From the NCBI GenBank assembly GCA_937141405.1, contig CAKZQQ010000006.1, positions 1 through 64,000 of the forward strand: a DNA stretch of 64,000 nt, in the 5' to 3' direction. Source of the stretch: an uncultured Campylobacterota bacterium (GTDB lineage Bacteria > Campylobacterota > Campylobacteria > Campylobacterales > Sulfurovaceae). The notes under the pieces were generated by a model. It did not search any database and was not told the origin of the DNA. It was given only the letters and a program-made list of their open reading frames with translations. Shown here in pieces: positions 558-44,040 of the stretch (position 1 is the stretch's first letter; every line of letters starts with the position of its first letter). A program made the translations under genes and the position numbers.

Positions 558-591
558 CGTGTATTTATTTTATATTAAGCAAGGGGGAACA

Positions 592-1440
592 ATGAAAAAA
601 TCATTTACCTATTATTTGGCAAGCTTACTTTTACTCTCTATATTTATGGGTGGTTGTACATCCAAAGAGGTGACTAAATCCGGCTCAATCGTATACCCTG
701 ATAGCGATTCAAAGATTCTTTTTTACAGAGATGCTGATACAACAGGGAAGCCTGTAACGATCAGAGTAGAAGATAGAATCGTTGGTGTCTTAAAACCAAA
801 AGAATACCTTAGTGTGCCCGTATGCATAGGGAAACATACTATAAAGGTATCTACAAGAGGCGCCGATAATGCTATGCATGACAAGAGTGCTTCTGTTGTC
901 GTAGATAACAATGCAAGCAAATACATCTATATCGATACAAGCAAAGCAATCGCAGAACCAAAGGCTGTTAGCGTTGCTTCTGATGATATGATTACTAGCG
1001 GAAGATCAGAGGGCGGTTATATGGTCAATAGATATGTACCGAATTGTACACGATACATTGATCTCTCTTCGGATGTTCTTTTTGCTTTTGGTGAAGCGAA
1101 ACTTACTCCAAAAGGAGAGGCTCTTTTGAGTGAATTGGTCACTACTTTAAAAACAAAAGCAATCGATATCAAAAAACTTGTTATCGAAGGGCATACAGAC
1201 ATCATCGGGGGAACAGCTTATAACAATAATCTTTCTAAAAAAAGAGCACAAGCTGTTGTTGATTTCTTTAAAAAACAAGGTCTAAAAATCCCTATGGTTG
1301 CAGTCGGAATGGGTGAGAAATATCCTATCACAAAAGGTTGCGAAAAAGTGAGTCCAAGAGCGAAGATGATAGAGTGCTTGAAGCCTGATAGAAGAGTCAG
1401 AATAGAGCTTATCAACAAAACACAACTTATAAAAAAGTAA
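592..1440 (+). CDS. OmpA-family outer-membrane lipoprotein
   Basis: This is a 282-residue lipoprotein expected to anchor the outer membrane to peptidoglycan. The ATG at 592 is preferred over an in-frame GTG at 559 because AAGGGGG lies just upstream and a signal peptide then starts directly, MKKSFTYYL... ending in the lipobox FMGGC. The middle part (about residues 40-120) is a beta-rich region of unknown role. The C-terminal ~115 residues are an OmpA-like peptidoglycan-binding domain, with the motif EGHTD followed by LSKKRAQAV and a terminal RRVRIEL. It is followed after 11 bases by the BapA-like gene and probably shares its transcript. A role in holding or displaying the two large secreted proteins downstream is inference from position only. 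Confidence 0.85.
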   Translation: MKKSFTYYLASLLLLSIFMGGCTSKEVTKSGSIVYPDSDSKILFYRDADTTGKPVTIRVEDRIVGVLKPKEYLSVPVCIGKHTIKVSTRGADNAMHDKSASVVVDNNASKYIYIDTSKAIAEPKAVSVASDDMITSGRSEGGYMVNRYVPNCTRYIDLSSDVLFAFGEAKLTPKGEALLSELVTTLKTKAIDIKKLVIEGHTDIIGGTAYNNNLSKKRAQAVVDFFKKQGLKIPMVAVGMGEKYPITKGCEKVSPRAKMIECLKPDRRVRIELINKTQLIKK

Positions 1441-1451
1441 GGAGATAGATC

Positions 1452-3674
1452 ATGGCAACAAATGTTATAAAAATTATTGATTCTCAAGATAAAGTTGTTT
1501 CCCAGACACAAGTTGCTTCGGGGAAATCGATCACAGTTTCTGCTAAAGAGGGACAATCCTATGAGTTTGTCAGCGGCGCTACTAAAAGAGCTCCTGATGA
1601 GATCAAAACAACAAGAGAGGGGAACAATCTCAAAGTTGAGATCAAAGATGGGGATGCAACATCGACAGTTGTTGTAGAAGATTACTATACCAATGGCGAG
1701 GGAGACCTCATAGGTTTGGCAGAAGATGGGCACTTCTATAACTTTGTACCTGAAGAGATGGGCAATGACTATATGGTAACTGATCTTGCCGATGGTGTCT
1801 CATCATTTCAAGCACTTGGGAGCGAGGGCGATAGCATGTCACCTTGGTGGCTCGGTTTACCTCTCCTTGCTTTAGGTGCTGCCGGCGGCGGTGGCGGTTC
1901 AGGAGCAGCCAATACTCTTGATACCACTGCGCCTGATGCACCGAGTGTGACTATGGTAACAGATGATTATGATATGCAAGCAGCGCTTAATTCAACCATG
2001 TGGGGCGCATATGATGATACTGGTAGTTGGAGTTTTGATAGCGCAACAGAAGAGTGGAGTGTAAGTAGTGGTACTGTAAGTCTTATTGATAATACGATTG
2101 TTACAAATGCAAATGGAGAAGAGCTTATATTCAGCGGGACCGGTGGAGAAGCAGGGGCGAAGATAAGTCTTTATGATGGTGTTGTTGTTGATCCAGATCA
2201 ACCAAACGGAACTCTATTGGGAGAAGCTACTGTTGCAAGTGATGGCAGTTGGAGCGTAACTATTGATGACGGTAAAGAGCTTGCCGATGGAGAGTACAGT
2301 CTCGTTTTGACACAAACAGATATAGCAGGCAATGTGAAAGAAGACGGAACAATAATAAATGTTATTATCGATAAAACGATTCCTATTGATCCAGGTAATT
2401 TCCAAATAAAAGATAGCACTCACAGTAGAGGATATTATGATGCAGTGCCAGGTGATGATGATACAAGCACTCCAACAGGAGATAATTACTATTTTAAAAA
2501 TGAATTTACATTGAGTGATACGCTTGGAACATCAATGCAGGGTACAGAAAGTGTATACAATGAAGGCGATAGTATATGTATTGAACTATATAATAGTACT
2601 ACAGATGTTACATATCGTATCATAGATTCAACGCTTGGAATAGAAGCTTCAGCAATTGTTGATAGCGACGGCAAATGGAGTGTTGATGTATATAGTGAAA
2701 CAGTTTATATGCAGAATACATTAACGGGAGAATGGGAGAAAGCAGACCTTGCTGATGGAGAATATATTCCAAAAATAGCAGTAGTTGAACCAAGTGGTAA
2801 TGTTAGTGGATTAATAGATGGCGGTGGTCGTTTCGCGATAGACACTACGGCACCCGAAGCAAATAGTATTGAAAGTTTTGCAAGGGATAACAATGACAAT
2901 ATAATGCTAAAAGGACAGATTAACAATTATCAAAAAGTTGGACTTGCTACTAGTGATAGTGAAAGCGGTAATGATATATACGATCGGGATTATGATGTTC
3001 TTACGGGCACTGAAGCATCAAAACTTTATATCTATAGAAGTGATGACGGCGGAAGCTATGCTCCTGTAGGAGAAGTTAATGTGGGGCAGTCGGTTAATTC
3101 GGATTGGTCGTGGATAGATACAGATATAGCAGATGATGGGGTTTATACATACAAGGTTGAGACACTTGATGTGGCCGGCAATAGCTCTGTGGGCGAAGCT
3201 TTTTATGCTGTAGTTGATGCCGATAGAGACGGTAATTATGATGGAGCCACTGCAGGGGTTGCAGGTACTGATGGAAATGAGGTATTTCAAACAGATGTAC
3301 TCAATTTAGGCTTCCAACTTGATGGAGGTGCCGGCGTAGATACATTGGTTTTAAATCCAACTTCTTCTACTGCTACTACTTTGACATTAGATAGCAACAC
3401 GGTAAATTTTGAAATTTACAATCTTGGTACTACGGCTACACTCAAAATAGACGATCTTGCATCAGTGCAAAATGCAGGTTCAGAATATACAGACCATGCA
3501 TTAACTATTCAAGGTAAAACTGGAAGTGAAGTAGATCTTGAACTTGATGCTGCTGCTTGGGTAGATACAGGGGACAATCAAGTAATTGATGGCGTAACAT
3601 ATAATGTATATCATTATGATGGAGCTGATACAAGTAGTAATCTTTGGATTCAAGACGGCGTAAGCGTTATATAG
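1452..3674 (+). CDS. BapA-like secreted surface protein with Ig-like repeats
   Basis: A 740-residue protein with no classical signal peptide. Residues 1-125 look like the N-terminal prefix domain of BapA-type biofilm proteins (a beta-rich head including DYYTNGEGDLIGLAEDG). A hydrophobic stretch with WWLGLPLLALG and a glycine run follows at 132-151. From about 158 come Ig-like modules of the bacterial Big type, each opening with a TTAPDAP- or TAPEANS-like motif. The last ~120 residues end in a GVTYNVY module shared with the next gene. These features fit a type I secretion substrate retained at the cell surface. The start is supported by GGAG at 1441-1444. It contains a single cysteine. No type I exporter genes lie in the window. 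Confidence 0.75.
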   Translation: MATNVIKIIDSQDKVVSQTQVASGKSITVSAKEGQSYEFVSGATKRAPDEIKTTREGNNLKVEIKDGDATSTVVVEDYYTNGEGDLIGLAEDGHFYNFVPEEMGNDYMVTDLADGVSSFQALGSEGDSMSPWWLGLPLLALGAAGGGGGSGAANTLDTTAPDAPSVTMVTDDYDMQAALNSTMWGAYDDTGSWSFDSATEEWSVSSGTVSLIDNTIVTNANGEELIFSGTGGEAGAKISLYDGVVVDPDQPNGTLLGEATVASDGSWSVTIDDGKELADGEYSLVLTQTDIAGNVKEDGTIINVIIDKTIPIDPGNFQIKDSTHSRGYYDAVPGDDDTSTPTGDNYYFKNEFTLSDTLGTSMQGTESVYNEGDSICIELYNSTTDVTYRIIDSTLGIEASAIVDSDGKWSVDVYSETVYMQNTLTGEWEKADLADGEYIPKIAVVEPSGNVSGLIDGGGRFAIDTTAPEANSIESFARDNNDNIMLKGQINNYQKVGLATSDSESGNDIYDRDYDVLTGTEASKLYIYRSDDGGSYAPVGEVNVGQSVNSDWSWIDTDIADDGVYTYKVETLDVAGNSSVGEAFYAVVDADRDGNYDGATAGVAGTDGNEVFQTDVLNLGFQLDGGAGVDTLVLNPTSSTATTLTLDSNTVNFEIYNLGTTATLKIDDLASVQNAGSEYTDHALTIQGKTGSEVDLELDAAAWVDTGDNQVIDGVTYNVYHYDGADTSSNLWIQDGVSVI

Positions 3675-3704
3675 TAATAAAATTTAAAATAAAAAAGGAA
3701 AAAA

Positions 3705-6700
3705 ATGGCAACGGTAAATTATACAGATGTAAATTTAGATGCACAAAACGGAGAGGCTATTGTTACTTATGTATCTAGTGAACCAATAATGTATTTAAAC
3801 TTGACAGAAGATTATGGCGGGGCATTAGAATTGGTGCAAACATCTTCTACAACATGGGAATTGAGAATAATCGATATCGATGGATTACCAAGTAGTTTCG
3901 AGCCACAAATTATCGGAAGAGATTTTTCTTTCATAACGGTTACGCCTTCCCCATTAACTGTTGAGTTAACTTATCTAAATGGTTTCGAAGCTGTTGCTGA
4001 TACAGCAGATACTCAGATAAATGAGGCTGTAACTACAGATGTATTGGATAATGATAACGGGGCAAGTGATGCGACAGTGGTTTCTGTAAGCGTTGATCCC
4101 ACACAAGGAACAGCAGTTATCAATCCTGATGGCACAGTAACTTTTACGCCTGCAGAAAACTTTTTAGGTGATGCAACTGTCACTTATACCATAGAAAACG
4201 CCGATGGTGAGACATCTTCAAGCACACTTACTGTGACTGTTTCCGATACCGTTGCCCCAACCCAAACAACAACTATCACAAGCATCATAGATGATGCAGA
4301 ATTCAATGTAGGTATTATCGCTGATGGTGGTGTTACAAATGATACAACACCGACACTTGAGGGAACTATCTCTGATGCTCTTGATTCAAACGAAGTTGTA
4401 GCTGTCTATAGAGACGGTGTAAAAGTAGGCGAAGCAACAGTAAGTGGTACTACATGGACATTTACTGATGCCGGACTTGTTGATGGCGATCATGCGTATA
4501 CTGCTAGAGTAGAAGATAGTGCAGGCAATCAAGGAGACAACTCAAATGAGTATAACATTGTTGTAGATACTGTAGCCCCTGTAGAGTCTACCGTTATCAC
4601 AACTATCGTAGATGATATCACTCCTGTTGTCGGTAACCTTAGCAATGGTGATACTACAAACGATACTACACCGACTCTTGAAGGAACCGTGAGTGTTGCT
4701 CTTGAAGCAGGAGAAGAGGTAATTATCTTACGAAATGGTGTAGAGATAGGTACAGCTACTATGACAGATGCAACACATTGGGAGTTTGCTGATAGCGGGC
4801 TCGTAGATGGTACGACATATACTTACACAGCTAGAGTAGAAGACGCTGCAGGTAATAGAGGTGCTATCTCCAATAAGTATAATATAACTATCGATACTTC
4901 AGCACCTACACAAACAGTGACTATAGATAAAGCAGTTGATGATGTAGCCCCATACACGGGTGATCTTGCAAGCGGTGATGTGACAAACGACTCAACACCT
5001 GAACTTCAAGGACACCTTGATGCCTCTTTAGGTACAAACGAAGTTGTTGCTATCTATAGAGATGGAACATATGTCGGTGATGCTACTGTAAATGGTACTA
5101 CATGGACATTTACAGATGGTGGACTTGCTAACGGTGAGGATTATACTTACACAGCCAGAGTAGAAGACGCTGCAGGCAATCAAGGTACAACTTCTAACGC
5201 ATTTGATCTTAGTATCGATACAGGTGGCCCTTCAGCAAATGCTGCTATCACAGCTATCAATGATGATGTAGCGCCTGTCATAGGAGCTATAGCAAACAAT
5301 GGAACAACAAACGACACAACACCGACACTCGAGGGAACTATAACAGGTACACTTGATGCAGGCGATAGCGTAGTTGTCTATAGAGACGGCGTAGCAATAG
5401 GTGAAGCAACTGTAAGCGGTACTACTTGGAGCTTTGAAGATAGTGGACTTGTAGATGGTGAAACTTATGTATATACTGTTCGAGTAGAAGATATAGCAGG
5501 GAATCCGGGAACAACTTCAAGTACCTATACTATCAGCGTAGATACATCAGCACCTACGCAAGATATAGCAATTGATCGTGCGATTGATAATGTTGACCCT
5601 GTTTCAGGTGATATCCCTAACGGTGGATTTACTAATGATGATACTCCTGAACTTCAAGGGCATATCGATGCAGCTCTGGGTGCAGGAGAGAGCGTAGTAA
5701 TCTACCGCGATGGTGTTGAGATAGGCACAGCTACTATGATAACAAGCACAACATGGAGCTTTACTGATAGTTCATTAGCAAGCGGTAGTACATATGAATA
5801 TACGGCATATGTTAAAGATGCTGCAGGCAATATCTCTGATGTCTCTAACGCAATCGGCTTTACTGTTGATACGAGTGGCGTTAACCAAACTACACAGATA
5901 CTTCATATCCATGATGATGTCGATCCTGTAACAGGTGCTGTAGCAAATAACGGAACAACAAATGATACGACACCGACACTTGAAGGAAGCGTTAATGTAC
6001 TTCTTGGAACAGGAGACAAAGTCATCGTCTATAGAGATGGTGTGGAGATAGGTGAAGCGACAGTAAGCGGTACATCATGGACATTTGAAGATACTTTGGC
6101 AAGTGATGGTACTTATGCTTACACGGCACTTGTTGAAAATGCTGCAGGCACACAAGGTTCTCTCTCTCAAGAGTATACAGTTACACTCGATACAACACCA
6201 CCAAGTGCTACAACAACTATAGACAGCTATAGTGATGATGTGGGTGCACTTCAAGGTGATTTCGGTAGTGGAACAGATACTGATGATACAACGCCTACAC
6301 TCAACGGTACGATAACAGGTGCACTTGATGTAGGTGATGTTGTTGCTATCTATAGAGATGGAACATATCTCGGTAATGCTACTCTTAACGGTAATAGCTG
6401 GAGCTATACCGATAGTGGGCTTGTTAATGGCAACGACTATACTTATACTGCGAGAGTAGAAGATGCCGCAGGTAATCAAGGTGCAACTTCTAATGCGTTT
6501 GATATCGGTATTGATACCAATGGTCCAACAGTAGGCACGACTATCACAGGTGTAAATGATGATGTAGCTCCTGTTGTCGGTGCTGTAGCTAATAATGGTT
6601 ATACAAACGACACTACTCCTGAACTTCAAGGAACTATCACTAGTGCTTTAGGTTTAGGCGAAGTTGTAGCTGTCTATAGAGATGGTGTAAAAGTAGGTGA

Positions 6701-9700
6701 AGCAACCATAAGCGGCACAACTTGGAGTTTCACAGATGCCGGACTAAGCGATGGCGAGGATTATACTTATACTGCGAGAGTAGAAGATAGTGCCGGGAAT
6801 CCTGGAGGCGACTCAAATAGTTATACTATCAATGTAGACATATCTGCCCCAACCCAAACAACAACTATCACAAGCATCATAGATGATGCAGAATTCAATG
6901 TAGGTATTATCGCTGATGGTGGTGTTACAAATGATACAACACCGACACTTGAGGGAACTATCTCTGATGCTCTTGATTCAAACGAAGTTGTAGCTGTCTA
7001 TAGAGACGGTGTAAAAGTAGGCGAAGCAACAGTAAGTGGTACTACATGGACATTTACTGATGCCGGACTTGTTGATGGCGATCATGCGTATACTGCTAGA
7101 GTAGAAGATAGTGCAGGCAATCAAGGAGACAACTCAAATGAGTATAACATTGTTGTAGATACTGTAGCCCCTGTAGAGTCTACCGTTATCACAACTATCG
7201 TAGATGATATCACTCCTGTTGTCGGTAACCTTAGCAATGGTGATACTACAAACGATACTACACCGACTCTTGAAGGAACCGTGAGTGTTGCTCTTGAAGC
7301 AGGAGAAGAGGTAATTATCTTACGAAATGGTGTAGAGATAGGTACAGCTACTATGACAGATGCAACACATTGGGAGTTTGCTGATAGCGGGCTCGTAGAT
7401 GGTACGACATATACTTACACAGCTAGAGTAGAAGACGCTGCAGGTAATAGAGGTGCTATCTCCAATAAGTATAATATAACTATCGATACTTCAGCACCTA
7501 CACAAACAGTGACTATAGATAAAGCAGTTGATGATGTAGCCCCATACACGGGTGATCTTGCAAGCGGTGATGTGACAAACGACTCAACACCTGAACTTCA
7601 AGGACACCTTGATGCCTCTTTAGGTACAAACGAAGTTGTTGCTATCTATAGAGATGGAACATATGTCGGTGATGCTACTGTAAATGGTACTACATGGACA
7701 TTTACAGATGGTGGACTTGCTAACGGTGAGGATTATACTTACACAGCCAGAGTAGAAGACGCTGCAGGCAATCAAGGTACAACTTCTAACGCATTTGATC
7801 TTAGTATCGATACAGGTGGCCCTTCAGCAAATGCTGCTATCACAGCTATCAATGATGATGTAGCGCCTGTCATAGGAGCTATAGCAAACAATGGAACAAC
7901 AAACGACACAACACCGACACTCGAGGGAACTATAACAGGTACACTTGATGCAGGCGATAGCGTAGTTGTCTATAGAGACGGCGTAGCAATAGGTGAAGCA
8001 ACTGTAAGCGGTACTACTTGGAGCTTTGAAGATAGTGGACTTGTAGATGGTGAAACTTATGTATATACTGTTCGAGTAGAAGATATAGCAGGGAATCCGG
8101 GAACAACTTCAAGTACCTATACTATCAGCGTAGATACATCAGCACCTACGCAAGATATAGCAATTGATCGTGCGATTGATAATGTTGACCCTGTTTCAGG
8201 TGATATCCCTAACGGTGGATTTACTAATGATGATACTCCTGAACTTCAAGGGCATATCGATGCAGCTCTGGGTGCAGGAGAGAGCGTAGTAATCTACCGC
8301 GATGGTGTTGAGATAGGCACAGCTACTATGATAACAAGCACAACATGGAGCTTTACTGATAGTTCATTAGCAAGCGGTAGTACATATGAATATACGGCAT
8401 ATGTTAAAGATGCTGCAGGCAATATCTCTGATGTCTCTAACGCAATCGGCTTTACTGTTGATACGAGTGGCGTTAACCAAACTACACAGATACTTCATAT
8501 CCATGATGATGTCGATCCTGTAACAGGTGCTGTAGCAAATAACGGAACAACAAATGATACGACACCGACACTTGAAGGAAGCGTTAATGTACTTCTTGGA
8601 ACAGGAGACAAAGTCATCGTCTATAGAGATGGTGTGGAGATAGGTGAAGCGACAGTAAGCGGTACATCATGGACATTTGAAGATACTTTGGCAAGTGATG
8701 GTACTTATGCTTACACGGCACTTGTTGAAAATGCTGCAGGCACACAAGGTTCTCTCTCTCAAGAGTATACAGTTACACTCGATACAACACCACCAAGTGC
8801 TACAACAACTATAGACAGCTATAGTGATGATGTGGGTGCACTTCAAGGTGATTTCGGTAGTGGAACAGATACTGATGATACAACGCCTACACTCAACGGT
8901 ACGATAACAGGTGCACTTGATGTAGGTGATGTTGTTGCTATCTATAGAGATGGAACATATCTCGGTAATGCTACTCTTAACGGTAATAGCTGGAGCTATA
9001 CCGATAGTGGGCTTGTTAATGGCAACGACTATACTTATACTGCGAGAGTAGAAGATGCCGCAGGTAATCAAGGTGCAACTTCTAATGCGTTTGATATCGG
9101 TATTGATACAACCCCTCCTGTAACCAATAGTATCGATATCACCTATATCACAGAAGATACCGGTGTTAGTGATACAGATTTTATAACCTATGATCAAACG
9201 CTTGTTATCGGCGGTACACTTGCAAATGCACTTCAAAGTGATGAGTGGGTTCAAGTAAGCCTTGATGGTGGCACAACTTGGGTTGATGCTACGGTAAGCG
9301 GTACAACATGGAGTTATGACAATACAGGCACTACGCTTGCAGAGGGTGATTACGATACACAAGTACGCATCGTAGATGTTGCAGGCAATGTCGGAGCAAC
9401 TGATGCGCAAACTGTGACTGTCGATACAACACCTCCGGCGACAAACAGTATCGATATCACCTATATCACAGAAGATACGGGAACTGCGGGTGATTTTATA
9501 ACCTATGATCAAACACTTGTTATCGGTGGTACACTTGCAAATGCACTTGGTGCAAATGAGCTCGTTCAAGTAAGCCTTGATGGTGGCACAACTTGGGTTG
9601 ATGCTACGGTAAGCGGTACAACATGGAGTTATGACAATACCGGTAGTGCTTTAAGCCTTGGCGAATATGATGTCGAAGCGCGCATCATAGATATTGCAGG

Positions 9701-10955
9701 CAATCTCGGAGCAGATGACACACAAAAAGTGACTGTAATCAACCAAAACCATGCGCCGACAGATTTGGTTACTAATGTAAACAGCATCGATGAGTATGCA
9801 AAAGCGGGAACGGTAGCTGCTACAATGTATGTTATAGACCCTGACTTACCAAATGATAGCCATACATATGCGCTTAGTGGTGCTGATGCTGATAAGTTTG
9901 TAATCGATAATAACGGTACGATAACCGTAAAAAATGACGGTTCACTCCATCTTGGGTGTCAAGCAAACGGCGAAGATCAGATCGTTACGGTTACAGTAAC
10001 GGTAACTGATGCAGGTGGTTTAAGCTATAGCGAAGATGTGGCAATCAATATTACAAATATTATGGAAGCTCCGATTAAATATTGCAACCCTTGTAGCCAC
10101 CAAGATTTGCATATAGTTGGTGCAGATAACAACGACATAATCGTAACAGGTTTTGGCGATGATTTTGTAATGGCGTGCGCGGGAGATGATTGCATCAAAA
10201 CAGGTTGTGGCGATGATACGATCTATGCCGGAGCCGGTAACGATAGGATCTATGCAGGAAGTGGCAATGATACTATCTATACAGGTTTAGGTGCAGATTA
10301 TGTTAGTGCAAGTTGCGGATATGATACGGTAAGTTATGAACACTCCACAAGCGGCGTAACCATAGGACTAGATGGTAGAAAAGGTAGTGGCGGTGATGCC
10401 GAGGGTGATAGACTCTGCAGTGTAGAGCATCTGATAGGAAGCGACTTTGATGATGTTCTAAAAGAAGGTTGTGGTGCTGATTTGATTGAAGGCGGCAAAG
10501 GAAATGATACAATCTATATCGATTGCAGCGATGTGGCGTACGGTGGTCAAGGCAATGATACATTTATCATAGATAGTGCATATACAGACGGCATCCATGG
10601 CGGTGAAGGGTATGATACGATCCAGTTTGGCTCTACAAGTTATTTAGATATGACAAGCTATCATGCGCCTGATGTTTCAAGTGTCGAAATGGTTGATATG
10701 ACAGATGGTGGTTGGTGTCGTGATACGCTTTATCTCGATAAAAATGCGGTAGATAGTATGACCGATAATGATCTTCTTTATGTTCAAGGTGATAGCAAGG
10801 ATAGAGTTGTTCTTGAGGGTGAAGGTAGCTGGTATAACTCAGTCGATTGGACACAGGCCGGTCAAGATACTGTGAATGGAGTAACTTATAATGTATATAC
10901 ATTGGATGGTCAAACTGTAATGGTCGATTCGGATGTTTCTGTAGTCCTTCATTAA
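3705..10955 (+). CDS. Giant RTX adhesin with Ig-like and cadherin-like repeats
   Basis: A 2416-residue probable type I secreted adhesin. An N-terminal head is followed by a tandem-95/cadherin-like segment (about 95-180, with VLDNDNG). About 17 Ig-like modules of roughly 108 residues follow (184 to about 2010), each with TNDTTPTLEGT and VYRDGV signatures. A cadherin-like domain comes next (about 2012-2125, opening NHAPTD). Calcium-binding RTX nonapeptides follow (about 2134-2205, for example GCGDDTIYA GAGNDRIYA), and the C-terminal module contains GVTYNVY. Modules 1-7 recur as an exact second set (residues 184-938 and 1048-1802). The start follows a GGAAAAAA ribosome-binding site, 30 bases after the previous gene. 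Nearly all cysteines are concentrated in the last ~420 residues, which is unusual. Ligand and exporter are unknown. Confidence 0.85.
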   Translation: MATVNYTDVNLDAQNGEAIVTYVSSEPIMYLNLTEDYGGALELVQTSSTTWELRIIDIDGLPSSFEPQIIGRDFSFITVTPSPLTVELTYLNGFEAVADTADTQINEAVTTDVLDNDNGASDATVVSVSVDPTQGTAVINPDGTVTFTPAENFLGDATVTYTIENADGETSSSTLTVTVSDTVAPTQTTTITSIIDDAEFNVGIIADGGVTNDTTPTLEGTISDALDSNEVVAVYRDGVKVGEATVSGTTWTFTDAGLVDGDHAYTARVEDSAGNQGDNSNEYNIVVDTVAPVESTVITTIVDDITPVVGNLSNGDTTNDTTPTLEGTVSVALEAGEEVIILRNGVEIGTATMTDATHWEFADSGLVDGTTYTYTARVEDAAGNRGAISNKYNITIDTSAPTQTVTIDKAVDDVAPYTGDLASGDVTNDSTPELQGHLDASLGTNEVVAIYRDGTYVGDATVNGTTWTFTDGGLANGEDYTYTARVEDAAGNQGTTSNAFDLSIDTGGPSANAAITAINDDVAPVIGAIANNGTTNDTTPTLEGTITGTLDAGDSVVVYRDGVAIGEATVSGTTWSFEDSGLVDGETYVYTVRVEDIAGNPGTTSSTYTISVDTSAPTQDIAIDRAIDNVDPVSGDIPNGGFTNDDTPELQGHIDAALGAGESVVIYRDGVEIGTATMITSTTWSFTDSSLASGSTYEYTAYVKDAAGNISDVSNAIGFTVDTSGVNQTTQILHIHDDVDPVTGAVANNGTTNDTTPTLEGSVNVLLGTGDKVIVYRDGVEIGEATVSGTSWTFEDTLASDGTYAYTALVENAAGTQGSLSQEYTVTLDTTPPSATTTIDSYSDDVGALQGDFGSGTDTDDTTPTLNGTITGALDVGDVVAIYRDGTYLGNATLNGNSWSYTDSGLVNGNDYTYTARVEDAAGNQGATSNAFDIGIDTNGPTVGTTITGVNDDVAPVVGAVANNGYTNDTTPELQGTITSALGLGEVVAVYRDGVKVGEATISGTTWSFTDAGLSDGEDYTYTARVEDSAGNPGGDSNSYTINVDISAPTQTTTITSIIDDAEFNVGIIADGGVTNDTTPTLEGTISDALDSNEVVAVYRDGVKVGEATVSGTTWTFTDAGLVDGDHAYTARVEDSAGNQGDNSNEYNIVVDTVAPVESTVITTIVDDITPVVGNLSNGDTTNDTTPTLEGTVSVALEAGEEVIILRNGVEIGTATMTDATHWEFADSGLVDGTTYTYTARVEDAAGNRGAISNKYNITIDTSAPTQTVTIDKAVDDVAPYTGDLASGDVTNDSTPELQGHLDASLGTNEVVAIYRDGTYVGDATVNGTTWTFTDGGLANGEDYTYTARVEDAAGNQGTTSNAFDLSIDTGGPSANAAITAINDDVAPVIGAIANNGTTNDTTPTLEGTITGTLDAGDSVVVYRDGVAIGEATVSGTTWSFEDSGLVDGETYVYTVRVEDIAGNPGTTSSTYTISVDTSAPTQDIAIDRAIDNVDPVSGDIPNGGFTNDDTPELQGHIDAALGAGESVVIYRDGVEIGTATMITSTTWSFTDSSLASGSTYEYTAYVKDAAGNISDVSNAIGFTVDTSGVNQTTQILHIHDDVDPVTGAVANNGTTNDTTPTLEGSVNVLLGTGDKVIVYRDGVEIGEATVSGTSWTFEDTLASDGTYAYTALVENAAGTQGSLSQEYTVTLDTTPPSATTTIDSYSDDVGALQGDFGSGTDTDDTTPTLNGTITGALDVGDVVAIYRDGTYLGNATLNGNSWSYTDSGLVNGNDYTYTARVEDAAGNQGATSNAFDIGIDTTPPVTNSIDITYITEDTGVSDTDFITYDQTLVIGGTLANALQSDEWVQVSLDGGTTWVDATVSGTTWSYDNTGTTLAEGDYDTQVRIVDVAGNVGATDAQTVTVDTTPPATNSIDITYITEDTGTAGDFITYDQTLVIGGTLANALGANELVQVSLDGGTTWVDATVSGTTWSYDNTGSALSLGEYDVEARIIDIAGNLGADDTQKVTVINQNHAPTDLVTNVNSIDEYAKAGTVAATMYVIDPDLPNDSHTYALSGADADKFVIDNNGTITVKNDGSLHLGCQANGEDQIVTVTVTVTDAGGLSYSEDVAINITNIMEAPIKYCNPCSHQDLHIVGADNNDIIVTGFGDDFVMACAGDDCIKTGCGDDTIYAGAGNDRIYAGSGNDTIYTGLGADYVSASCGYDTVSYEHSTSGVTIGLDGRKGSGGDAEGDRLCSVEHLIGSDFDDVLKEGCGADLIEGGKGNDTIYIDCSDVAYGGQGNDTFIIDSAYTDGIHGGEGYDTIQFGSTSYLDMTSYHAPDVSSVEMVDMTDGGWCRDTLYLDKNAVDSMTDNDLLYVQGDSKDRVVLEGEGSWYNSVDWTQAGQDTVNGVTYNVYTLDGQTVMVDSDVSVVLH
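4254..6517 (+). repeat. Direct repeat copy 1 (seven Ig modules)
   Basis: A block of about 2264 bp within the adhesin gene recurs at 6846-9109, an offset of 2592 bp (864 codons). I saw no mismatch in the stretches compared, synonymous sites included. It encodes seven consecutive Ig-like modules that differ from one another, so the copy is of the block as a whole. One unduplicated module (6518-6845) separates the copies. Confidence 0.9.
6846..9109 (+). repeat. Direct repeat copy 2 (seven Ig modules)
   Basis: Second copy of the 4254-6517 block, in the same frame and orientation. Identity begins at the GCCCCAACCCAAACA junction and ends at TATTGATAC, after which the two copies continue into different modules. 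Identity at the DNA level points to recent duplication or ongoing homogenisation. Confidence 0.9.
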
Positions 10956-39670: not shown

Positions 39671-39812
39671 AATGGCTCCAAATGTTGTTAGAAAGATTAT
39701 AGCAAAAGAGTGATTATAGCACGGAGTATCAATCCAAAGTAGTACTTAAGTTATGGTATTATATCGCAAGATTTTATCGAGTAAAATATTTATAACAGAA
39801 ACAAGGAGAGAT

Positions 39813-41774
39813 ATGCGTCTGTTTTTAGTGATAATGCTACTGAGTGTTTTTAGTTTTGCCAAAGTTGACATAATAGATCCTTATAAGAAGATAGATTATT
39901 TTGAGCTTGAAAACGGTATGAAGGTCTATCTTCTTAGTGATAATAAAGCAGTCAATACACAAATATCTGTTGAAGTTAATGTCGGTTATGACGTAGAAGA
40001 TGCTAAGAATTATGGGCTCTCTCACCTTGTAGAACATATTATTTTTCGTGACCAGCGTGTTCCCTATCATGATTATTTGGATTATATCAAAGAAGAGGGT
40101 GGCATCGAGGTTAACGGCTATACATCACGGTACAAAACAAAATATTTTACTACAATAGATAGTGCGAAATCCTATTGGATAGCACAAATATTTGCACAGA
40201 TGCTTTTTGATAAAAAAGTTACTCAAGAGGACGTTGAAGTTGAAAAGGGGGCGCTTCAAGCAGAGATTGGTGAAATACAATGGCACAATAAATTTCTCTG
40301 GGCTATTAAAAGTTTTTTAAAGGCGATATACCCACCAAGTGAAGATATGTATGAAAATGAATTTATGTTGAGTAAACCTAAAGAGTTACCTCCACGCTAT
40401 CATACCCAAGAGAATAACAGGAATTTTACGCTCGAGCAGATAAAAAAGCACTATGAAGCTTACTACTATCCTGCAAATATGACACTCTTTATGGTTGGTA
40501 ATTTTGATGCGCATAAGATGAAAGAGTTTATTGTTGCAAATTATGGCAAGGTACAAAAAACGGGAAATGCGAGCACGGTAGAACCGCCAAAAAATCCAAA
40601 GCTTAACGATAGACCCTATCTTAGATTTTATGAGGGGGCAGATGAAAATAGTGCCTACATAGGGGCTAAATATATCTTAGATGATTATAAAAAATATCTT
40701 ATTCTCTCTATCTACACCAGAGACCTTGCGGAAAGATTGCAGCAACATATGCGCAATATCGAAGGCAAAACCTATAGTGTCAACTCTTACCATTTTTATG
40801 ATCGCAAGGCCGGAGTTGCAACTGTAACATTTGATGGTTTGCATGATGATTTTCAGAGTAATATCGAATATGTAAAAGCAACAATAGAAAATGATATGAA
40901 GCATTTGAGTGACACTACTATTCAAGAAGCGATAGATCAGTATGGCAAAAAAGTATACGCTTCGATCGAACATGATAGCCACTCTTTGATGAATACCGTT
41001 TTAACGAGCAGATATATGCGAAAAGAGCACAATATAACAGAGCAAACCTCATATGGTGTGTTTAGCTCCATCACCCCCGAAGAGTATAGAGCGGTCCTCG
41101 CAGAAACATTCACACCCAATAATTACTATAGCTATATCACAAGAGACTACTATTTCTTTCCGTTAGAGATGTACGCTATCTCAATTTTAGCCTTTATATT
41201 TTTATTTATCATCTATTTTTGGCTCTATCGCATCGATCTCAAGCGCTCCGGCGTCATCTATACTCAGCGCGATATTGTAATGCAGAGACGAGTAACAAAT
41301 CGTTTTGTGGGCTTTTTGATTTTTGTATTTATACTTGTACTGTCATCCATAGTGTTGGGATGGGGAAAATATCTTATCTCGAAATATCTTCTGGGCGATC
41401 CATTTTATCTTACAACAATAGATGTGCCTTATAGTTATATTTTCACGGTACTTGATCCAGTATTTTATCTCTTCATCTTCATCTTTTTTTATCGTTATCT
41501 CTTCTCTTATTATGCGCGATTGGATGTTGTAAAAAATGCTATGTATGCTATTGGCAGTAAAGTTAAAGTTTTTCCAAAAGAGGAGATAGAGAGCGTTGAT
41601 GTTGCGCCATGGAGATTTAAAAATTGCCGCAAGATAATCGGGAGCATGGTTCGTTTTTGGAAGCCGCTTGTGCGCATCAATATGAAAGATGGCTCTATCT
41701 ATTATATAAGAGCATCTCAGGCAGAGCACCTTAGAGAGGATATTAGCGAGTGGATTGCTGCTAAAAATAGTTAG
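39813..41774 (+). CDS. M16-family zinc peptidase with C-terminal membrane domain
   Basis: A 653-residue protein starting at the ATG preceded by AAGGAGAG. A signal sequence or anchor (MRLFLVIMLLSVFSFA) is followed by an M16 peptidase domain with the inverted zinc motif HLVEH (71-75) and a downstream EVEKGALQAEIGE glutamate. A second M16-like half continues to about 450. Three membrane segments follow (about 455-475, 510-530, 545-570). The last ~80 residues are cytoplasmic, beta-rich and PH-domain-like (VRINMKDGSIYYIRAS). The protease head would face the periplasm. Substrate unknown. The domain combination is unusual for M16 proteins, which are normally soluble or have a single anchor. Confidence 0.78.
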   Translation: MRLFLVIMLLSVFSFAKVDIIDPYKKIDYFELENGMKVYLLSDNKAVNTQISVEVNVGYDVEDAKNYGLSHLVEHIIFRDQRVPYHDYLDYIKEEGGIEVNGYTSRYKTKYFTTIDSAKSYWIAQIFAQMLFDKKVTQEDVEVEKGALQAEIGEIQWHNKFLWAIKSFLKAIYPPSEDMYENEFMLSKPKELPPRYHTQENNRNFTLEQIKKHYEAYYYPANMTLFMVGNFDAHKMKEFIVANYGKVQKTGNASTVEPPKNPKLNDRPYLRFYEGADENSAYIGAKYILDDYKKYLILSIYTRDLAERLQQHMRNIEGKTYSVNSYHFYDRKAGVATVTFDGLHDDFQSNIEYVKATIENDMKHLSDTTIQEAIDQYGKKVYASIEHDSHSLMNTVLTSRYMRKEHNITEQTSYGVFSSITPEEYRAVLAETFTPNNYYSYITRDYYFFPLEMYAISILAFIFLFIIYFWLYRIDLKRSGVIYTQRDIVMQRRVTNRFVGFLIFVFILVLSSIVLGWGKYLISKYLLGDPFYLTTIDVPYSYIFTVLDPVFYLFIFIFFYRYLFSYYARLDVVKNAMYAIGSKVKVFPKEEIESVDVAPWRFKNCRKIIGSMVRFWKPLVRINMKDGSIYYIRASQAEHLREDISEWIAAKNS

Positions 41775-41865: not shown

Positions 41866-44040
41866 TTGAGAACAGTAGCCTTTATACTAACCCTGATGAC
41901 TTTGCTCTGTTTGGATTGTTCCGCTAGCGGGTTTGATTTTACTAGTTATGTCGATTTTGATAATGTAGATACAAAGAGTGAAGAGTTTATCCAATTTACT
42001 GCACTCTTTGGTTTGGGTATTGTAGGGCTTGTGGCTCTGTTTCTCTCATCTGAGCGCTTACGTAATTATGAAAAGAAAGTTATCAAAGAAAGACAGAAGA
42101 AAGAGGAGTTCAATAAAAGACAAGGTCTCATGCTCTCGGAGATGACTGAGAATATTCAAAATATAGCTAAAGAGACTGTAAATACCGCAAAAGATTTATA
42201 CACAAAAGATCAAAAATCTACAATTTCGAAAGATATTAGAAAGGTTGTATCATCTGAGGCTAAGTTGCTCTCTATCACAACAAATCTTATCGAGTTTCTA
42301 AGAATAAAATCAAGAAAAGTTGAGGTGGTCGATGAGGATTTTATCCTGTGCAATCTCCTTAATGATGTGACCGGTACATTAAAAGAGGCTACCAAAGATA
42401 TAGAGTTAAACCTTATATATGATGTTCAAAAAGATATATTGGATCATCTATGCGGTGATACGCTCAATACGAGTAAAATCATTGTAAATATAGCTCTTTT
42501 TTGTATAGAACATGATGCGAAAGAGATAGTAGTAGAAGTCTCAAAAGGCAAATATCATAATACGAATTACCTCTATTTTAAAGTTGTCAGCTCTATCGAT
42601 GTTGATGTAGAAGATGATAACAGTATCTTTAATTCGAGCTATAATGAAACTACCAATAGTTATGATTCGCTCGGACTATTTATAGCAAAAGAGCTAGCTA
42701 TTTTAACAGATGGAGATATATATACTAGAAACAATAAAGATGGAAGCGTTGAATTTACCTTTTTCACTCCTTTCAAAGAGCATCCGGATGCTAAGAAAGC
42801 AAAACCCGATAATAATGTAACAAATAAGATGATTTATCTTCTGGATACTTCCGAGAAGACAACAACGTCTCTAAAAAATATGTTACTAAGCATGCACCAC
42901 TCCGTTAAGGTTGATACGAAAGAAAATTGCCTAACAAAAACACCTGATTTTTCTAAATTTGATTTAGTAATTATTGATGAGAAGGTTCTAACCTTTAAAG
43001 TCGTTGAGGCACTCAAAGCGAGTAAGGCTAAAATCATATCTTTGAGTAATATTTTTAATCCTATGCAGGATTATCCTCATAGTGCAATTGTTGATGTAGA
43101 GTTAAGTAAGCCTATTACGAGACAGCAATTGATTAACAACATCAATGGACTATTCCAGGAAAAAGGGAAGAAGGGTATTCCTGGGCAAGAGGTGCTAGTG
43201 TCTACCTCGAAACTCCCGGTACATAGAGCACTTTTTGAGGATGCGCCGGATGTAACTTTGAATAGTTTCTCCCAATTCAGAGATTCTGAAGTTTTACTCG
43301 TCGAAGATAACCTTATCAACCAAAAGGTCACAACAAGCCTTTTGAGTAAATCTGAAATGAACATCACTATAGCAAATGACGGAAAGGAAGCGATAGATAT
43401 ACTTCGAGATAGTGGCAAAAAGTTTGATATAGTTTTTATGGATATCAATATGCCTGTAATGGACGGTTATACGGCAACGAAACTGATAAGAGCAGATAAG
43501 AGATTTGATGATCTTCCTGTCTTGGCGCTGAGTGCACTCACATCAGCATCCGAGATAAGCAATATGTTTAAGTCCGGGATGAACGGATATCTCTCAAAAC
43601 CTCTGATTATCGGTAGATTTTTTACGGCATTTAGTGTCTTTTTGGAACAAAAAGATGAAATTGTACAGCCGGTTAAAAAGAAACAAGAGATTCGTGATCT
43701 CGATGGCTTGGATGTACAAATCGGGATAGTTCAAGCAAATGATAGTGCTATCTTCTATAAAGAGATTCTTTTAGAGTTTAAAGATGCTTACGGTGAAAGT
43801 GGTGATATCTTTGAAAAACTTGTAAAAGATTTTAGATATGAACAGCTCAAAATGCTCTGTATCGATCTCAGAGGTCTTGCCGGGTCAATCGGTGCACGAG
43901 ATCTGTATAAATTGATTGCTGAAGTGGTACAGAGACTTATAATGAAAAGATATGAATTGATGCCAAGCTACATAGAGCCATTTAAAAAAGAGATTAGTAG
44001 AGTTATCGAGTCTATAGATATATACACAAAACAGATATAA
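41866..44040 (+). CDS. Degenerate hybrid sensor with receiver and Hpt-like domain
   Basis: A 724-residue membrane protein: signal or first membrane segment (1-20), a second at about 44-62, then a long cytoplasmic part. The dimerisation helix region (about 125-165, KDIRKVVSSEAKLLSITTN) has no phospho-accepting histidine, and the ATPase-like domain keeps only a SLGLFIAKELA glycine box. A degenerate receiver (about 325-430) is followed by a good receiver (VLLVEDNLINQ, FMDINMPVMDGYTA with phospho-Asp near 525, LSKPL). The Hpt-like end reads CIDLRGLAGSIGA, with isoleucine where the histidine belongs. It may act as a phospho-receiving scaffold for another kinase. A start other than the TTG at 41866 is possible. 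Confidence 0.75.
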   Translation: MRTVAFILTLMTLLCLDCSASGFDFTSYVDFDNVDTKSEEFIQFTALFGLGIVGLVALFLSSERLRNYEKKVIKERQKKEEFNKRQGLMLSEMTENIQNIAKETVNTAKDLYTKDQKSTISKDIRKVVSSEAKLLSITTNLIEFLRIKSRKVEVVDEDFILCNLLNDVTGTLKEATKDIELNLIYDVQKDILDHLCGDTLNTSKIIVNIALFCIEHDAKEIVVEVSKGKYHNTNYLYFKVVSSIDVDVEDDNSIFNSSYNETTNSYDSLGLFIAKELAILTDGDIYTRNNKDGSVEFTFFTPFKEHPDAKKAKPDNNVTNKMIYLLDTSEKTTTSLKNMLLSMHHSVKVDTKENCLTKTPDFSKFDLVIIDEKVLTFKVVEALKASKAKIISLSNIFNPMQDYPHSAIVDVELSKPITRQQLINNINGLFQEKGKKGIPGQEVLVSTSKLPVHRALFEDAPDVTLNSFSQFRDSEVLLVEDNLINQKVTTSLLSKSEMNITIANDGKEAIDILRDSGKKFDIVFMDINMPVMDGYTATKLIRADKRFDDLPVLALSALTSASEISNMFKSGMNGYLSKPLIIGRFFTAFSVFLEQKDEIVQPVKKKQEIRDLDGLDVQIGIVQANDSAIFYKEILLEFKDAYGESGDIFEKLVKDFRYEQLKMLCIDLRGLAGSIGARDLYKLIAEVVQRLIMKRYELMPSYIEPFKKEISRVIESIDIYTKQI

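Follow-up and report, generated by a model that had tools for sequence, protein, structure and literature searches.

The closest described systems are DivL, a tested sensor of a phosphorylated receiver that lacks the phospho-histidine and for which the available part of the source reports no kinase or phosphatase activity (PMC4211667), and RetS, a hybrid kinase that acts on another, GacS, through heterodimers (PMC12189002, in the portion of the text available). According to the available part of a domain census, the histidine is missing from 0.9% of HisKA domains (722 of 76,471) and from 0.9% of Hpt domains (90 of 10,312) (PMC12632262). Pseudo-histidine kinases are thus already known as a class; what is new, within the literature searched, is a conserved family that has lost both histidines and retains an intact receiver. 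No description of this doubly His-less family was found in that literature, most subscription journals being outside its scope. To our knowledge, most of the pseudo-histidine kinases described so far are individual proteins (DivL, RetS and RcsD). RetS reportedly keeps a histidine and has no pseudo-HPt, in both respects unlike the protein described here, and RcsD is said to be a pseudo-kinase with an HPt domain that keeps its histidine, which the present protein does not.

The protein is encoded in a window of 64,000 nucleotides (the whole stretch of DNA analysed) from an uncultured Campylobacterota bacterium of the Sulfurovaceae. Its open reading frame (41866..44040, + strand, as are all features below) begins with a TTG codon, has the sequence AAAGG 7 bases 5' of this start (by eye), and encodes a hybrid-kinase-like protein of 724 amino acids that was assigned to its doubly His-less family by profile and tree. 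From the N-terminus, the order is a transmembrane segment, a DHp-like domain, an ATPase-like (CA) domain, a degenerate receiver (REC1), an intact receiver (REC2) and an HPt-like domain. The membrane anchor, REC1 and the family-wide scope of the histidine losses are additions to the initial annotation. A hydrophobic segment recognized by eye (residues 43-61, 41992..42048) is the presumed anchor and follows a signal-like N-terminus; in the AlphaFold model it is part of a helix (residues 34-113) that runs from the membrane segment into the DHp domain, with the second DHp helix at residues 120-148. The two-helix DHp-like domain (residues 75-150, 42088..42315) contains no histidine and aligns with intact DHp domains in hhalign (probability 96.6, E 5.2e-10). 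The degenerate ATPase (residues 157-302, 42334..42771) was delimited by Pfam, alignment and model, and REC1 (residues 322-430, 42829..43155) by model and alignment. REC2 (residues 475-592, 43288..43641) matches PF00072 with an E value of 5.5e-24 and PDB chain 8phx_B with Z 19.4 and rmsd 1.3 over 125 residues. The C-terminal helical bundle (residues 617-723, 43714..44034) aligns with intact HPt domains (hhalign probability 99.4, E 2.9e-21).

The model of the whole protein was built from 23 aligned sequences (mean pLDDT 80.1, pTM 0.52) and that of the bundle alone (residues 605-724) from 18 (pLDDT 95.0); both alignments contained intact relatives, which may bias the models toward the usual folds. 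The best structural matches of the bundle are HPt domains, namely 3myf_A (Z 18.0, rmsd 1.6, 114 residues) and the HPt of BarA (3iqt, Z 15.0), and the first non-HPt chain follows at Z 10.3. The core matches structures of ShkA, HK853, DivL and RetS. These folds are largely invisible to domain searches. Response_reg (PF00072; 84.9 bits, residues 476-583) is the only Pfam domain over its cut-off, HATPase_c falls short of its own (17.8 versus 26.4 bits), and neither HisKA nor Hpt has a Pfam match in this protein at E <= 10. Pfam likewise finds no DHp and no HPt domain in seven of the eight other members scanned; in the eighth, L042, both domains match under the cut-offs. Domain censuses may therefore miss such proteins.

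The initial annotation held that the H-box has no histidine, that the ATPase keeps a single glycine box and that isoleucine stands at the HPt histidine position, and each of these statements holds up. The site that reads SHEIRTP in intact kinases is here T94-E95-N96-I97, with Glu95 (42148..42150) at the phospho-histidine position according to the alignment, hhalign and the count of the histidine column. The description of a single glycine box is fair, since the N-box asparagine (NIALFCIEH) and the G1 box (VVSSIDVDVE) are lost and a G2-like SLGLF is present. Ile666 occupies the HPt histidine site and is followed by Asp667 (43861..43866; CIDLRGLAGSIGA). Compared with an active HisKA kinase, the protein has the DHp-CA fold (HK853, 5uht_A, Z 20.5, rmsd 3.4, 222 residues) and lacks the phospho-histidine and two of the three ATP-site boxes; compared with an HPt domain, it has the helical bundle and lacks the histidine. 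A kinase fold without the histidine site places it among the pseudo-histidine kinases. All eight histidines of the protein lie outside residues 75-155 and 610-720, so that no simple positional shift of histidine within the two domains has occurred, and the objection that a displaced histidine might take over fails for this protein. Three residues past the H-box site, at column 98, 34 of 62 family members have a histidine, where the window protein has glutamine. With just these 34 members it does not serve as a family-wide replacement, and in the members that have one it could conceivably be a phosphosite.

In the middle receiver the initial annotation saw DINMPVMDG and the lysine of LSKP retained, and REC2 indeed has the complete set of residues: the acidic pair Glu480-Asp481, the predicted phospho-acceptor Asp526 (43441..43443), Ser556, and Lys578 in the motif LSKP (43597..43599). 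Lys578 is present in 66 of 68 family members and Asp526 in 64 of 69. The five exceptions have asparagine and all belong to genus g11, in which two further members still have the aspartate; receiver phosphorylation is thus not universal in the family. These g11 paralogues (L022, L023, L172, L173 and L177) show a mirror-image decay, and two of them, L022 and L023, combine the asparagine in REC2 with a retained ATPase N-box (ENAFKF) and G1 box (DTG). REC1 has lost its second acidic residue and keeps Asp371 and Lys415 in the window protein, the former being aspartate in 33 of the 67 family members with a residue there. Because Asp371 is present in the window protein, it is uncertain which receiver matters.

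Loss of the histidines is common to a family in sulfur-oxidising sea bacteria. The window's taxonomic family is represented by 175 genomes, and in 101 of them a profile made from 12 members of the protein family finds a match at E <= 1e-70. In 8 of these 101 the best match is weaker than 1e-130, a range shared with intact relatives (L184 at 8.6e-120 and L181 at 5.6e-117), and 93 of 175 is therefore the safer count. The window's own genus has the family in 4 of 11 genomes, and the named member nearest to the window protein, L038, comes from a record labelled Sulfurimonas sp. The alignment holds 70 family rows, 64 taken by score (window protein included) and six by hand, after the earlier removal of nine redundant rows. 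None of the 62 members with a residue at the H-box column has histidine there; 53 have glutamate, 4 tyrosine, 3 aspartate, 1 asparagine and 1 glutamine, and 8 rows are gapped. At the HPt column histidine is again absent (0 of 68, with 2 gaps) and the residue is mainly leucine, isoleucine or valine, followed by the near-invariant Asp667 (65 of 68). Among the 101 profile matches outside the family, histidine is found in 97 of 99 at the H-box and in 71 of 79 at the HPt site, counting those with a residue there. The same picture, with both histidines lost and REC2 retained, emerges from 40 rows thinned to <60% identity.

Family and intact relatives were separated by a score cut between 441 and 440 bits that was placed by eye where the histidines reappear. 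The independent test is therefore a tree of 73 rows built from residues 100-600 without both histidine columns. All 47 of the 70 family rows that it includes fall on one side of a single branch, with a support of 100 from a quick method without bootstrap; one row, L065, is long. Closest to the family among the other rows branch the Campylobacterota kinases L181, L182 and L184, which by eye have receivers on both sides of the kinase core, an intact HPt domain and a similar YRLPSK/YRLPSR linker. The first-branching family row, L042, lacks both histidines and keeps the N-box, which suggests that the loss of the histidines preceded that of the ATP site.

Selection on the window gene is purifying. 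Against the orthologue in G004 (73.6% identical, 571 codons) dN/dS is 0.086 overall, and 0.146 for the N-terminus, 0.076 for CA, 0.103 for REC1 and 0.055 for REC2; these are rough values, as dS is near saturation throughout and the DHp domain and linker were excluded for saturated dS. The most conserved 20-residue segment of the family begins at residue 523, at the REC2 phospho-site, whereas that of the intact relatives begins at residue 86, at the H-box. With both histidines gone family-wide, purifying selection and predicted folds that are intact, the earlier proposal of a pseudokinase, as opposed to a sequence accident or a pseudogene, is well supported. Alignment at the three decisive sites bears this out (histidine in 0 of 62 at the H-box and 0 of 68 at the HPt site, aspartate in 64 of 69 in REC2).

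Several described proteins share parts of this anatomy. DivL has a kinase core without the phospho-histidine and matches structurally (4q20_B, Z 20.2, rmsd 4.6, 222 residues), but it binds a separate receiver, DivK, has tyrosine at the site and carries PAS domains, whereas the window protein has glutamate at the site and holds its receiver and pseudo-HPt in cis. The match to RetS, the Pseudomonas inhibitor of GacS (6dk7_E, Z 19.3, rmsd 4.2, 208 residues), is one of structure, and sequence-level membership is not claimed. The best structural match is ShkA (6qrj, 414 residues, Z 22.4), albeit at an rmsd of 9.5; ShkA has the order DHp-CA-pseudoREC1-REC2 with a degenerate first receiver (PMC7010744, available text), but it is an active kinase under c-di-GMP control. 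BarA gives the best NCBIfam match of the window protein at 153.8 bits, far from the equivalog cut-off of 890 bits, and its HPt domain is a close fold match.

An intact REC2 in a chain without phospho-histidines is explained most economically if the protein reads the phosphorylation of another kinase, as the initial annotation had proposed. We consider it probable, if by no wide measure, that the protein is a membrane hybrid pseudokinase of the DivL/RetS kind, in which REC2 would be phosphorylated in trans, with docking surfaces provided by the pseudo-DHp and the pseudo-HPt. To the observed anatomy and its conservation, this model adds a predicted phosphorylation, partner and output. Asp526 would receive its phosphate from a NIT-domain hybrid kinase encoded on contig C5 or from the adjacent HPt protein. 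The change in REC2 would be relayed through the pseudo-DHp, which would dimerise, perhaps as a heterodimer with the partner kinase, and also through the pseudo-HPt, which would dock a receiver and be unable to accept phosphate. In this way the protein could tune the balance of kinase and phosphatase activities of its partner, as DivL and RetS do for theirs.

Evidence on the partner comes from genome organisation. Four genomes of genus g9 (G018, G027, G035 and G071) contain the family. In each of them a co-directional hybrid-kinase gene directly adjoins or overlaps the family gene, the starts being mechanical first start codons. This pairing fits the reading of phosphorylation from another kinase. 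In the g9 partner kinases HisKA begins almost at once (residues 29-38), and Pfam finds no sensor or HPt domain in them. Three of the four are in the tree, where they group (CORE, 100) with the NIT kinase of the window genome and four similar kinases. Nine HisKA matches at E <= 0.01 were obtained in the window genome, of which one is in a protein with a fused receiver; HPt is matched once. This protein and the HPt match belong to the same cluster on contig C5, which encodes a PAS protein, the HPt protein (410 amino acids), the NIT-domain hybrid kinase (1079 amino acids) and a CheY-like protein (123 amino acids). Judged from genome organisation, then, the g9 partner appears to be related to the one hybrid kinase found in the window's genome. 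CheA was considered as phosphodonor and rejected, since at E <= 0.1 nothing in the genome other than the C5 protein matches HPt and no CheA P1 domain was found. Co-occurrence with HPt genes was also set aside as partner evidence: among the genomes that have a family match 96 of 101 carry such a gene, as do 65 of the 74 others, a difference that is not significant (Fisher P 0.096), and at E 1e-70 intact relatives are counted as family too. A conserved neighbour as general partner was likewise abandoned, because among the places examined a kinase partner was seen at g9 only. The window's own copy has no kinase gene next to it, its neighbours being an M16-type peptidase gene and recA. Many type-A genes of genus g3 are found between RuvX-like and NlpC/P60-like genes, and three SPOR-like type-B genes are flanked by bioB- and topA-like genes (all names by eye).

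The strongest rival explanation is that the protein forms a heterodimer with a hybrid kinase and that REC2 drains phosphate from the DHp histidine of this partner, damping the relay, with the pseudo-HPt as a structural leftover. The intact REC2, the kinase-like dimerisation helices and the presence of RetS structures among the top matches are all compatible with such a phosphate sink, and siphoning from GacS by RetS has been described (PMC12189002, in the part of the text available). The pseudo-HPt does not behave as a leftover, however. Its best-conserved segment is residues 658-677, the helix expected to bear the histidine, with a mean entropy of 1.40 bits against 2.00 for the whole pseudo-HPt (REC2 has 1.54), and the contrast is about the same as that in intact HPt domains (1.89 for the histidine helix versus 2.62 for the domain). 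Within this helix residue 669 is lysine or arginine in 53 of 68 members and residue 670 is glycine in 60 of 68, positions which we take to be those at which an HPt domain docks its receiver. As constraint on the helix has not relaxed despite the lost nucleophile, we read it as a preserved docking surface. Dimerisation through the DHp domain is also not essential in all members, given that three g9 members lack most of it while retaining REC2 and pseudo-HPt, and that short forms consist of little more than a receiver and a pseudo-HPt. We regard the sink as a serious possibility, but an unlikely one. The same three g9 members constrain the preferred model, because in them it cannot operate through DHp heterodimers.

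According to another explanation, which we consider improbable, the protein is a stand-alone sensor whose REC2 takes its phosphate from a small molecule, for instance acetyl phosphate, or is active when unphosphorylated, and whose output partner lies outside two-component systems. In its favour, a kinase neighbour was not recognised beside most members with listed surroundings, and the residues of REC2 needed for phosphorylation by small donors are present, but the conserved HPt-type helix and the kinase pairing in g9 both point to a two-component partner. A cryptic enzyme, either an autokinase that works through some other residue or a response-regulator phosphatase, is a good deal less probable still. 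The kinase-like fold is kept, and L022, L023 and L042 retain the N-box asparagine and may bind ATP; in the window protein, though, both this asparagine and G1 are gone. HisKA phosphatases use threonine or asparagine four residues past the H-box site, and just 23 of 64 members have either residue there, the window protein (asparagine) among them. Decay of an ordinary hybrid kinase into a pseudogene, suggested by the many lost catalytic residues and by internal stops in the genes of a few relatives (e.g. G108, G143 and G148), is rejected in view of the stop-free open frame of the window gene and of most listed members, a dN/dS of about 0.09 (dS near saturation) and the same losses across the family.

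A bolder extension of the preferred model, in which REC2 responds to phosphorylation in trans, is that the whole lineage carries a listening phosphorelay. The two histidine domains of a single ancestor would have been turned from phosphate donors into phosphate-blind readers, a hydrophobic-Asp pair would replace His-x in a pseudo-HPt that still docks a receiver, and the receiver would be the sole input, so that the flow of information is reversed within one polypeptide. This proposal is tentative, and we would give it rather less than an even chance. The intact relatives in the same bacterial group would allow the conversion of a phosphorelay from sender to receiver to be tested, and the family could show whether bacteria can use a pseudo-HPt for docking that is blind to phosphate.

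Family members differ in the parts that surround the receiver. Read by eye, the short forms (L025/L179, L027/L180 and L070) have a hydrophobic segment, one receiver and a pseudo-HPt with the conserved aspartate, and are without DHp or ATPase; L078 has the same receiver and pseudo-HPt. A second type of 820-880 amino acids (L042, L162, L164, L175 and similar proteins) carries a SPOR-like periplasmic N-terminus, with a SPOR match in L042 under the cut-off (E 0.0076). The genes for L174, L175 and L183 follow a SPOR-like gene of 200 amino acids and lie between bioB- and topA-like genes (names by eye). Elsewhere in the window, the M16-type peptidase gene at 39753-41774 has both M16 domains over the cut-off and a C-terminal stretch with hydrophobic segments that has no Pfam match; the close relative G004 lacks this gene at the corresponding position. 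The region 559-10955 contains an OmpA-family gene followed by two genes with Ig-like domains; the product of one of these two, 2416 amino acids long, combines 17 Big_13 stretches with RTX calcium-binding repeats and is, by its domains, a giant surface adhesin.
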